Source of the DNA: Nakamurella flavida
GTDB taxonomy: Bacteria > Actinomycetota > Actinomycetes > Mycobacteriales > Nakamurellaceae
Direction of reading: 5' to 3'
DNA length: 64,000 nucleotides
Assembly: GCF_030811475.1 (NCBI RefSeq)
Contig: NZ_JAUSQV010000001.1
Span: 248,001-312,000, forward strand
The notes under the pieces are model-generated. The model saw only the letters and a list, made by a program, of their open reading frames with translations, did not search any database and had not been told where the DNA came from. Shown piece after piece: positions 29,876-33,958 of the stretch (the first letter of the stretch is position 1; every line of letters starts with the position of its first letter). The position numbers and the translations under genes are program-made.

Positions 29876-31288
29876 GTGAGTTCACTGCCCGCCGGGGTCG
29901 CCGCCGGTCATCCGTCCACCGCGGCCGTCGGACTCACCGTCCTGTCGGCCGGCGGGTCCGCCGCGGACGCCGCCGCCGCGATGGTGTTGGCCGGGTGCGC
30001 GGCCGAGACCCTGTTCACCGGGCTCGGTGGCGGCGGCTTCGCCACCGTGTTCGAGGCGTCGACCGGGACCGTCCACGGACTGGACTTCTTCGTCGCCGTC
30101 CCCGGACTGGACGGCACGCTCCCCGGCCCCTCGCACGACATCGCCGTGGCCTTCGGCGGGGTGTCGGTGCCGTACGCGATCGGCGGGCCCAGTGTGGCCG
30201 TGCCCGGTACCCCGCTCGGCGTCGCCGAGCTGCACCGCCGGTTCGGACGGTTGGACTGGGCCGAGATCGTCCGTCCGGCCAGGGATCTCGCCGAGGCCGG
30301 GGCGGCGTTCCCGCAGCAGCACGCCGATCTGCTGCCCGACGTCGCCGCGGCCATGGTCATCGGCGCCGGAGTGGGGGTCTACACCCGTCCCGACGGCGTG
30401 GGCGGTCGGCGCCATCTGCAGGGCGGCGAACTGCTGCTGCACGAGGGTCTGGCCGACACCATGGACGACCTGCTGCACGAGGGCCCGGAGGTGCTGACCA
30501 CCGGTCGCCGCGGCCGCGCGCTGGTCGACGCCGTCCGCGCCGACGGGGGAGCGATGTCCCCGGACGACATGGCGGCCTACCGGGTCGCGGATCTGACGCT
30601 GCGCACCGTGCCGTTCGGACCGGCGGAGGTCAGGGTGCGCGGCAACGACCTCGACGCCTTCGCCGACACCCTCCTCGCCCTGGACGTCGACGCGGTCCGC
30701 GCGGGCGGGGTTCCGCGGGCGCTGGCCCTGGTCGATGCCCTGCGCGCACCCACCCGTCGCTCGGAGACCACCAGCCTGGTGGCGGTGGACCCGGACGGGA
30801 ACGCCTGCGCGGTGACCCATTCCCTCGGGTTGGGGTCAGGGGTGTGGACCGGTGGCGTGCACGGGAACTCCATGCTGGGCGAGGGCGAACTGCTGCGCGG
30901 CATCCTGGTGCCCGGCGACCGGATGCCGTCGATGATGGTGCCCCACGTCGTCACGGATGCCGTCTCGGGTGGCCTGCTCGCCGCCGGTGGCGCCGCCGGC
31001 GGCAGCCGGATCCGCAGCAGCCTGCTGCAGGTGCTGGCCGGGATGCTGCTGGAGCAGCGGGGGACGGCTGCGTCGGTGGCCGCCCCTCGGCTCGCCGCCG
31101 CGCCCGGCCTGGTGCATCTGGAGCCTGGCTTCGGCCCGGGTGTCGCCGCGACCCTGTCGGCCCGGGGCGAGCAGGTCCTCGAATGGCCCGGTCAGCGGCC
31201 GTTCTTCGGTGGCGTCGCGATGATCGGGCGCGACGGCGCCGCCGCCGACCCCCGGCGCGGCGGCACGGCCCTGCTGCTGGCCGACTGA
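29876..31288 (+). CDS. Gamma-glutamyltranspeptidase-like Ntn hydrolase
   Basis: 470 residues, about 100 fewer than classical GGT and without a signal peptide, so probably cytoplasmic. GHPSTAAVGLTVLSAGGSAADAAAAMVLA is the family's N-terminal region; TGLGGGGFATVFEASTG follows. The autocatalytic cleavage site is SETTSLVAVDPDGNACAVTHSLG with nucleophile Thr298 (T-T-S instead of the usual T-T-H). GVHGNSMLGEG and MPSMMVPHVV are the downstream glycine/serine loop, and AAGGAAGGSRI the C-terminal motif. The middle of the large-subunit half is shortened. It may act on gamma-glutamyl or mycothiol-type substrates, but this is inference. Confidence 0.8.
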   Translation: MSSLPAGVAAGHPSTAAVGLTVLSAGGSAADAAAAMVLAGCAAETLFTGLGGGGFATVFEASTGTVHGLDFFVAVPGLDGTLPGPSHDIAVAFGGVSVPYAIGGPSVAVPGTPLGVAELHRRFGRLDWAEIVRPARDLAEAGAAFPQQHADLLPDVAAAMVIGAGVGVYTRPDGVGGRRHLQGGELLLHEGLADTMDDLLHEGPEVLTTGRRGRALVDAVRADGGAMSPDDMAAYRVADLTLRTVPFGPAEVRVRGNDLDAFADTLLALDVDAVRAGGVPRALALVDALRAPTRRSETTSLVAVDPDGNACAVTHSLGLGSGVWTGGVHGNSMLGEGELLRGILVPGDRMPSMMVPHVVTDAVSGGLLAAGGAAGGSRIRSSLLQVLAGMLLEQRGTAASVAAPRLAAAPGLVHLEPGFGPGVAATLSARGEQVLEWPGQRPFFGGVAMIGRDGAAADPRRGGTALLLAD

Positions 31289-31339: not shown

Positions 31340-32242
31340 TCAGGCGGGCACGGAGCTGCGTACCCGGATGTCGCCGGACGTGCTGGTCACCGCGATCGAC
31401 GCGGGGGAGCTGCTGTCCGGGGCCTCCGGGGTGATCTCCAGATCGCTGCCGGCCGTCCCGGAAGCGGTGTGCAGGGTCAGGGCAGCCGCGGTTCCGGGAT
31501 GAACTCCGACGACGACATCACCGCTGACCGAGGTGATCTCGACCCCGCCGCCGATCAGATCGGCCACGGTGACCCGTCCGGACACGCTGCGCACCGAGGT
31601 GGGTGCCTGCACGGTGGTGAGCCGGACCGCCCCGGAGGTGGTGGCCACCGTGGCGTCGTGCTGCACGCTGCCCACGGTGATGTCACCGGACGCCGTCCGG
31701 ATGTCGATCTGCTCGCCGGTGGAGCCGACGGTCACCGCGCCGGAGGCCGTCGAGGCGGCCAGCGACCCGTTCGCCTCCTGCAGGACGACGGTGCCGGAGG
31801 CGGTGCGCGCGTCCACGTGGTGGGCGGGACCGTGCACGGTCAGATCGGCGGCCTGTGACTGGACGCGGACGTCCGAGCCGGCCGGGGCGGTGACGACGAC
31901 CGAGAACGCGGAGCGCCAGCTGGTCCGCGCCGGGTCGGTGTCGACGACCAACCGGGCCCTGCCGGCGGGCCGCTCGGTGGTGGACCGGTCGGCAGTGGTG
32001 TCGGCGGTCGGGTCGGTGCGGCCCGGGCGGGCGGGGATGAGTTCGACCCGGGGCAGCGGTTCGTCGCCGTCCCGGTTCACGCCCGCCGACCGCAGGACGC
32101 CGTCCAGGAAGGACATCGCACCGCCCGTCGCCGGTCCCACCTCGACGGTGGTGGTGTGCGTGTCGGTGAGGTCGATGCGGATGTCGCCCGCGGCGTTGCG
32201 GACCTCGACGACGATGGGCTCGGGGGTCAGGAAGGTGTCCAT
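31340..32242 (-). CDS. DUF4097 beta-strand repeat protein
   Basis: 300 residues with no signal peptide or membrane helix. The C-terminal 190 residues are a repetitive parallel beta-helix typical of DUF4097: repeats of the pattern TASGxVxVxS/T (for example RTASGTVVL, STASGAVTV, RTASGDITV, ATTSGAVRL, SVSGRVTV, SVSGDVVV) about 18-20 residues apart. ATG is preceded by GAGGAG. It lies 74 bases downstream of the ribbon-helix-helix gene on the same strand, a pairing common in actinobacteria. The family is often annotated as an adhesin- or anti-sigma-linked protein, but no activity is established. Confidence 0.82.
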   Translation of the reverse strand: MDTFLTPEPIVVEVRNAAGDIRIDLTDTHTTTVEVGPATGGAMSFLDGVLRSAGVNRDGDEPLPRVELIPARPGRTDPTADTTADRSTTERPAGRARLVVDTDPARTSWRSAFSVVVTAPAGSDVRVQSQAADLTVHGPAHHVDARTASGTVVLQEANGSLAASTASGAVTVGSTGEQIDIRTASGDITVGSVQHDATVATTSGAVRLTTVQAPTSVRSVSGRVTVADLIGGGVEITSVSGDVVVGVHPGTAAALTLHTASGTAGSDLEITPEAPDSSSPASIAVTSTSGDIRVRSSVPA

Positions 32243-32316: not shown

Positions 32317-32874
32317 TCAGCCCTGGACGAACCCGGTGACGGTGCTGCCGCCCGGCCTGGTGGCCGAGTGCTCGCGGTGGCCCTTCCCGGGCACCGCGGA
32401 ACGCACCGAGTCGGCGACGGCGCGGGAGATGTAGGTGTTGAGGGAGACGCCCTGGTCACCCGCGGCCCGTTCGGCCTGGGACTTGAGCTCCTGGAACAGG
32501 CGCACCGTGGTCCGTGACAGTTCGCCTCCGACGTCCTGCAGGTGGCGGCGCAGTTCGTCGGGGGAGGTGGGCGTCCCGTCCGCCTCCACCCCGGTGGGGG
32601 TGTCGGCGCCGGGGCCGCCCGGGCCGGCGACCGGATGGTCGGTGATGCGGACCCGGACGTTGCGTCCGTCCAGGTGCAGGTCCACGGTCCGGCCGTGCAG
32701 CTCGCCGGTGACCTCGGCGGCCAGGTCGGACAGGGCGTTCATCAGCGCGAGGCGGGCGGCGGGTTCGATGGCGCCGGCGAGCAGGGTCGCCGCCCGCCGG
32801 GTGTCCTCGTCGCCGACGGCCGCGGCGGACAGCAGATCTTCACGGAGGGAACTCACGTACGGGGTCAGGTCCAT
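32317..32874 (-). CDS. HicB-like ribbon-helix-helix DNA-binding protein
   Basis: 185 residues. N-terminal helical half MDLTPYVSSLREDLLSAA...ARLALMNALSDLAAEVT (1-60) and VDLHLDGRNVRVRI belong to the actinobacterial HicB-family antitoxin group; the last 50 residues are a ribbon-helix-helix: RTTVRLFQELKSQAERAA as strand and helix, GVSLNTYISRAVADSV as second helix. No HicA toxin gene accompanies it; the partner is DUF4097. The ATG lies inside the first of six phased TGACGTCA-like octamers, strongly suggesting autorepression. No Shine-Dalgarno sequence is seen. In the operator, see the array entry at 32874-32958. Confidence 0.8.
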   Translation of the reverse strand: MDLTPYVSSLREDLLSAAAVGDEDTRRAATLLAGAIEPAARLALMNALSDLAAEVTGELHGRTVDLHLDGRNVRVRITDHPVAGPGGPGADTPTGVEADGTPTSPDELRRHLQDVGGELSRTTVRLFQELKSQAERAAGDQGVSLNTYISRAVADSVRSAVPGKGHREHSATRPGGSTVTGFVQG

Positions 32875-32958
32875 GACATCAGTGTGACACCAGAGATGAC
32901 GTCACTCAAGAGATTTGTGACGTCAGTTTGACGCCACATGGCCCACGCAGTGACGTCA
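32874..32958 (-). promoter_or_regulatory. Phased TGACGTCA operator array
   Basis: Octamers at 32874 (TGACATCA), 32885 (TGACACCA), 32897 (TGACGTCA), 32918 (TGACGTCA), 32929 (TGACGCCA) and 32951 (TGACGTCA). Three are perfect palindromes, the others differ at one or two positions. Offsets are 0, 11, 23, 44, 55 and 77 bases, that is multiples of one helical turn, so all sites face the same side of the DNA. They cover the start codon and promoter region of the ribbon-helix-helix gene, the likely binding protein. Confidence 0.75.
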
Positions 32959-33196
32959 CAGGCTTCTCCCACCGTGCGAAGGCGTCAGTGCGGGTGGGGA
33001 CCTCGACGGCGGCCGTTCCGCGGGCCGCGGTGGTCGCGCACATTCGGGTGGCCACCGTGCGGTGCCCATGGCGTCCCGATACCGGGCCCCGCTCGACACC
33101 CGCGCCGGTCGGCCCACCCGACACGTGCCGGAGCACCCGGCCGACCCGCCACAGCGGCGACCGGAGGGCATTGACCCGGTGTGAGAGGGTCGCCGG

Positions 33197-33958
33197 GTGA
33201 GCGCCCCCGAGTCCCCGTCCGCGCCTGGGGTGCAGTTGATCGGCCGGACGGAATTCCTCCCGCCGGCGGACGTGCCGTGGCAGACCGATGCCGACGGTGG
33301 CCAGGCGCTCGCCGAGTTCGCCGGCCGCGCCTGCTACCGGTCGTGGTCCAAGGCGGTGCCGGCCACCGCGACCAACGCCGGCTACCTCGAGCACATCCTG
33401 CAGGTCGGTCATCTATCGGTGCTCGAGCACAGCTCGGCCACGTTCTACCTGACGGGCATCTCCCGGTCGGTGTCCCACGAGCTGGTCCGTCACCGGCACT
33501 TCTCGTTCTCGCAGCTCTCGCCGCGGTTCACCCCGGCGGGCGGGCCGGGGGTGGTGGAGCCGGCCGTCATCGCCGCCGATCCCGCACTGCACGAACGCTT
33601 CTCGACCGCCGTGCAGGCCGCGGCGCAGGCCCACGCCGACATCCTTCGACTGCTGGACGAGGCGGCGGTCGATGCGCCCGACGGCGCGCTGGCCCGCAAG
33701 CAGGCGCGGCAGGCCGCCCGGGGCGTGCTCCCGGCGGCGTCCCGGACGGACCTGGTGATGACCGGCAACCTGCGCGCCTGGCGTCATCTCATCGGCACCC
33801 GGGCCACGGAGGCGGCCGATGTCGAGATCCGGTCCCTGGCCGTCGCCGTGTTGGAGCAGCTGCAGGCCCTCGCCCCGCATGCGTTCGCCGACTTCCGGAT
33901 CAGCGACCTCCCCGACGGGACGCGGCTCGCCGCGTCGCCACTGGTCGGCGAGGGCTGA
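33197..33958 (+). CDS. thyX: Flavin-dependent thymidylate synthase
   Basis: Makes dTMP from dUMP with methylene-tetrahydrofolate, NADPH and FAD. 253 residues. ThyX signature RHRHFSFSQLSPR at 98-110, with the FAD-binding RHR and catalytic Ser, in the form seen in mycobacteria; LEHSSATFYLTG just before it; and the dUMP-binding ARGVLPAA and MTGNLRAWRHLIGTR (about 178-192). GTG start with GAGGGT seven bases upstream (weak). In relatives thyX is followed directly by dapA; here eight genes, 9 kb, separate them. Confidence 0.97.
   Translation: MSAPESPSAPGVQLIGRTEFLPPADVPWQTDADGGQALAEFAGRACYRSWSKAVPATATNAGYLEHILQVGHLSVLEHSSATFYLTGISRSVSHELVRHRHFSFSQLSPRFTPAGGPGVVEPAVIAADPALHERFSTAVQAAAQAHADILRLLDEAAVDAPDGALARKQARQAARGVLPAASRTDLVMTGNLRAWRHLIGTRATEAADVEIRSLAVAVLEQLQALAPHAFADFRISDLPDGTRLAASPLVGEG

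Follow-up and report, generated by a model that had tools for sequence, protein, structure and literature searches.

MetJ, an autoregulatory ribbon-helix-helix (RHH) protein with S-adenosylmethionine as corepressor, binds as dimers to tandemly arranged 8-bp palindromes (met boxes, AGACGTCT) that have a GACGTC core and abut every 8 bp. The array described here, located in front of a HicB-like RHH gene in a 64 kb stretch of actinobacterial DNA (the window), shares with met boxes the 8-bp palindromes with a GACGTC core, the tandem arrangement and, as we propose, occupancy by RHH dimers and autoregulation. Unlike met boxes, its sites follow each other at a pitch of about 10.9 bp with N3/N4 gaps and skip the -35 box, and gapless tandem 8-bp boxes are absent. 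With Arc and Mnt (and AmrZ), the window protein has in common RHH sequence homology and the x-N/T/S-x-R beta-strand pattern. Arc dimers occupy adjacent major grooves (PMC12645479), but Arc is a small stand-alone RHH protein, whereas the window protein has a unique N-terminal domain of 80 residues and up to six sites. Its likeness to RHH antitoxins of the HicAB and FitAB type comprises the RHH fold, an operator over the start codon and the expected autoregulation; it differs from them in having no toxin gene beside it and a DUF4097 (Toastrack) protein as its partner.

At the level of gene neighbourhoods, the operon very probably belongs to a class that has already been noticed: Ravi et al. 2024 give one sentence to a Toastrack-ABC operon of actinobacteria in which the regulator is an RHH protein (PMC11237479), and the RHH gene of the window likewise stands beside a Toastrack-domain gene in a member of the Actinobacteria. 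In the main text of that survey, no operator, promoter or specificity is described for these operons (PMC11237479), and our search of the open-access literature found no description of the operator of this RHH family. The operon class (from the neighbourhood survey) and RHH repressors with tandem palindromes, like MetJ or Arc, are already known. What appears to be new is the phased array in its extended form, the leaderless promoter interleaved with it and the code for specificity. Results of our analysis indicate, with a probability of roughly 0.87, that the HicB-like RHH protein uses the array as the operator for repression of its own gene, and it would thereby also repress the co-transcribed DUF4097 gene.

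The RHH gene (32317-32874, minus strand, 185 aa) was assigned by its match to Pfam HicB, by its Arc/VapB26 profile match and by an AF2 model. Operator sites are numbered below on its coding (minus) strand, where +1 is the A of the start codon. The initial annotation had placed six octamers at 32874, 32885, 32897, 32918, 32929 and 32951, the first of them over the RHH gene's own start codon, and all these positions are correct. Site 1 (32874-32881; TGATGTCA on the minus strand) begins at -7 and ends on the A of the start codon; it is followed upstream by site 2 (32885-32892; TGGTGTCA on the minus strand, -18) and site 3 (32897-32904; TGACGTCA, -30), and then by the distal sites 4 (32918-32925; TGACGTCA, -51), 5 (32929-32936; TGGCGTCA on the minus strand, -62) and 6 (32951-32958; TGACGTCA, -84). 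A recount agrees with the earlier tally of three perfect octamers and three that miss by one or two bases: on forward reading, TGACGTCA is exact at 32897, 32918 and 32951, while TGACATCA at 32874, TGACACCA at 32885 and TGACGCCA at 32929 deviate from it at one, two and one positions, respectively. The degenerate octamer TGRYRYCA fits all six.

TGRYRYCA occurs 14 times in the 64 kb window, six of these within 85 bp. In 20,000 dinucleotide shuffles of the region 32860-32970 (111 bp), the mean count was 0.12 and the maximum three, and no shuffle reached six. Octamers resembling TGACGTCA with at most one mismatch are not enriched in the window as a whole (20 found vs. 31 expected), and the signal is therefore purely a local cluster. 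The initial annotation had also described the sites as phased by one helical turn along one DNA face. The regular pitch holds, but a period of about 10.9 bp fits the distances between orthologue sites better than 10.5 bp (coherence 0.90 vs. 0.69), and the array thus follows one face of B-DNA closely but not perfectly.

The proximal part of the array coincides with a predicted promoter on the minus strand. Its -35 hexamer, TTGAGT (32904-32909), overlaps site 3 by one base and is separated by a 17 bp spacer from the -10 hexamer, CACACT (32881-32886), which is built from the ends of sites 2 and 1. The window's own -10 hexamer is weak. In the alignment of orthologues, TTGac or TTGcg is found at -35 to -31 and CAtaaT (family consensus CATAAT) at -12 to -7; among 61 orthologues, the aligned -35 positions are T in 94-100%, T in 67-81% and G in 67-88%. 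Since the A at the second position of the -10 hexamer is the last base of site 2 and its final T the first base of site 1, the operator and the promoter are interleaved. No site lies at about -40, where room is left for the -35 box, and the register resumes upstream of it. A Shine-Dalgarno-like motif precedes one of 167 RHH-gene starts vs. 139 DUF4097 starts at the same loci, and from its near-absence at the former we infer a leaderless transcript that begins at the ATG. The array looks like a promoter with interleaved -35 and -10 boxes and a leaderless start.

The RHH gene is present in 60 of the 198 genomes of the class and in all 17 genomes of the family. It is also present in other classes of the phylum Actinomycetota, and a search with a Streptomyces-centred alignment as query found it in named Streptomyces, Kitasatospora and related genera. 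The initial annotation had made its proposal depend on the array being present in orthologous operons, and it is kept there: at least two sites were found in 159 and at least three in 125 of the 164 clear orthologues with enough flanking sequence. At 175 unique loci, an exact TGRYRYCA lies at -7 in 130, at -18 in 140 (and at -19 in 13 more) and at -29/-30 in 129, with further upstream sites around -51, -62, -72 and -83. The mean number of sites per orthologue is 3.1 between -90 and +1, as compared to 0.04 further upstream and 0.006 within the gene. The eight weak and distant homologues mostly lack the array, so that it marks this subfamily and is not shared by all RHH proteins whose N-terminus is similar.

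The number of sites differs among loci, from two to six, and the distal sites are therefore not essential everywhere. This bears on the possibility that the protein is a dual regulator that, at low level, would activate by way of the distal sites and would repress only once all sites are filled, as a two-state switch. The position of the distal sites upstream of the -35 box in the same register would suit such a function, and AmrZ and NikR are examples of RHH proteins that both activate and repress (PMC3325190). However, the best-conserved sites are the proximal ones, over the -10 box and the start, while the distal ones are variable and missing at many loci, and we consider dual regulation unlikely in comparison with autorepression.

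The RHH sequence signature is present in the C-terminal part of the protein (about residues 120-160), and the Pfam HicB match, above the cut-off (7.4e-5), covers only residues 123-152, that is, the RHH part. In a comparison of the family profile with PDB, Arc (E 9e-4), VapB26 (3e-3) and also Mnt were matched. As the window sequence 'SRTTVRLF' aligns with Arc 'MPQFNLRW', Arg121, Thr123 and Arg125 are the equivalents of Gln9, Asn11 and Arg13, the DNA-reading residues of Arc (PMC12645479). The AF2 model of the full-length monomer shows the RHH part as helices only, with the DNA-reading strand absent, which is likely an artefact of modelling a monomer. The N-terminal alpha-alpha-beta-beta domain (residues 1-80) is conserved and predicted as helix-long helix-strand-strand (pLDDT 88.6). 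It gave no Pfam match, no PDB match below E 1 and nothing significant in Foldseek, and so the partial RNase H fold of the HicB N-terminal domain was not recognised in it.

An unbiased search of the 198 genomes, on DNA alone, for three TGRYRYCA sites with N3/N4 gaps returned 32 places in 30 genomes, and the reversed pattern, used as a control, returned one. Twenty-eight of the 32 arrays end at the start codon of a hicB-like RHH gene; one of the 28 lies at a contig end, where the cut gene still encodes the expected N-terminus. Two arrays (G122:C17 and G176:C10) were discounted, as the matched sequence consists of repeats of a 12-bp unit. At another place (L115, G075:C355, 2454-2483), an additional three-site array lies directly after the stop codon of the upstream gene, about 520 bp upstream of the normal array of that genome, with which it shares the intergenic region. 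The genome of the window (4.32 Mb, one contig) carries a single RHH gene of this kind, and closely spaced site pairs cluster in it at the RHH locus only. With wide spacings, the own-genome search yielded no more hits away from this locus than its control, and further targets in this genome are rejected for now on that ground.

The specificity of the sites provides another link to the RHH protein. Among 152 alignment columns, residue 123 is the top predictor of whether operator base 3 is A or G (adjusted R2 0.61, and 0.44 without Streptomyces; first either way), and it is not outstanding as a predictor of base 4. At equal GC, the fraction of G at base 3 is 0.29 with Thr, 0.34 with Ser and 0.81 with Asn. 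In independent contrasts the association ranked first of 305 residue traits (p = 5e-4). The position equivalent to residue 123 likewise bears on base choice in AmrZ (PMC3325190). As Asn123 has few independent origins with good support, with one such pair and five changes on the best tree, so that a sign test for them lacks power, the covariation that would tie the RHH protein to the TGRYRYCA sites is suggestive and not conclusive.

Many families of regulators bind short palindromes, and another regulator, for example of TetR or MarR type, might control through them the operon or thyX (33197-33958, plus strand), which is divergent from the operon in the window and lies near it at 12 of 18 loci of the family. 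Such a regulator is very improbable: the array is locked to the start codon of the hicB-like gene, at more than 230 bp from the start of thyX, its base 3 covaries with a residue of the RHH beta-strand, and the same geometry is found at other RHH genes. Control by or of thyX was set aside, given that outside the genus the array accompanies the hicB-like gene and not thyX. The proposal of the initial annotation that the HicB-like protein is the ligand is strongly supported by the positional lock, the near-exclusive occurrence of three-site arrays at such genes and the covariation of residue 123 with base 3.

Other RHH genes with this geometry include unrelated FitA-like and other antitoxin genes of the same genus, which carry at their own starts N3-spaced pairs of TG....CA with an 11-bp pitch, and the shared pitch makes the geometry look like a general RHH signature. 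These are pairs of the palindromes TGGCGCCA or TGATACCA at the start codons of small RHH antitoxin genes, FitA-like and others (L258, L259, L264, L266 and L260, L267, L271).

The second gene of the operon, encoding the DUF4097 protein (31340-32242, minus strand; Pfam DUF4097, 1.9e-14), has a homologue directly downstream of the RHH gene at 171 of 175 loci, and HicA was found nowhere in the whole genome by a search whose control detected HicA in 10 of 14 genomes; the pairing of HicB with DUF4097 and no HicA, as first read from the window, is thereby borne out. The Pfam HicB match and the operator geometry shared by the RHH antitoxins of the genus would also agree with a HicAB-like type II antitoxin, the array being ordinary DNA for toxin-antitoxin conditional cooperativity and DUF4097 an unrecognised toxin. 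We regard this as most improbable, as opposed to autorepression, in view of the lack of HicA in this genome and of the exporter gene present in three-gene operons. Moreover, DUF4097 is not a known toxin; it is a scaffold domain, Toastrack, with a link to envelope stress, for which Ravi et al. 2024 propose the role of a sub-membrane docking platform (PMC11237479). The earlier suggestion of a non-toxin regulatory pair seems to be essentially right as regards non-toxin autoregulation. On this evidence, the Pfam HicB label, an antitoxin family name, would usually be a mislabelling in this family of dedicated autorepressors.

In Streptomyces and relatives, the third gene of the operon encodes a DrrA-type ABC ATPase (56 of the 63 third ORFs picked; NCBIfam drrA 320.9 bits vs. 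a cut-off of 312.45). The lunaemycin gene cluster contains a 177-aa protein of unknown function beside a DUF4097 protein, as well as DrrA (PMC9866976). In the window operon, no ABC ATPase or permease gene was found, and the window thus represents the two-gene form of the operon. The DUF4097 gene is followed there by a convergent gamma-glutamyltranspeptidase-like gene (29876-31288, plus strand, 470 aa; 156 bits vs. the NCBIfam equivalog cut-off of 358).

From the array, its conservation, the promoter layout, the operon and the specificity covariation, all of which are read in the sequences, we infer binding, dimer occupancy and repression of the following form. Each RHH dimer would read one TGRYRYCA palindrome by its beta-ribbon (Arg121, Thr123 and Arg125). 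Dimers at -7, -18 and -30 would cover the -10 box, the transcription start, which would coincide with the start codon and give a leaderless mRNA, and the edge of the -35 box; with sites 1-3 filled, RNA polymerase would be excluded. Dimers at -51, -62 and -84, in the same helical register, would lengthen the array. Repression would cover the RHH gene and DUF4097 and, in Streptomyces and some other lineages, also the DrrA-type drug-export ABC transporter. The octamer TGRYRYCA, a pitch of 10.9 bp and a single beta-strand residue that sets base 3 would together form a readable operator code. With this code, binding sites and an exchange of specificity can be put to the test at once, and it may help to learn when Streptomyces switches on the DrrA-type exporter operon; the RHH family is present in very many actinomycete genomes.

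The most economical reading would be a self-repressing operon with a link to envelope or drug stress, and we propose that an envelope or drug signal may relieve repression via the N-terminal domain and/or the Toastrack protein. A more speculative extension, possible though rather doubtful, is that the operon is in itself a widespread, so far unrecognised sensor of envelope and drug stress in actinomycetes: upon damage to the envelope or accumulation of a drug, the cytosolic Toastrack protein would capture the RHH repressor and empty the array, thereby inducing exporters in cis (in the DrrA operons) and, in some genomes, in trans (ABC, MFS and perhaps PspC-LiaF genes with the same sites).

Several places away from hicB-like genes carry such sites. 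A gene for an MFS efflux-like transporter (L138, G010:C10, 3001-3035) has the remaining one of the 32 three-site arrays at its start codon and is a candidate trans target in a genome whose hicB-like gene is located elsewhere. In one genus mate, two different ABC transporter ATPase genes are preceded by arrays of TGACGTCA-like sites (L263, G211:C55, about 1979-2051; L283, G211:C170, about 2090-2119). The frequency of single site pairs is close to chance level. In another genus mate, a site pair upstream of a gene for a PspC protein with a LiaF-like C-terminal (Toastrack) part (L268, G212:C238, 2001-2019) possibly reflects a link to an envelope-stress regulon, or chance, and a PadR gene of the same genus mate also has a site pair in front of it.
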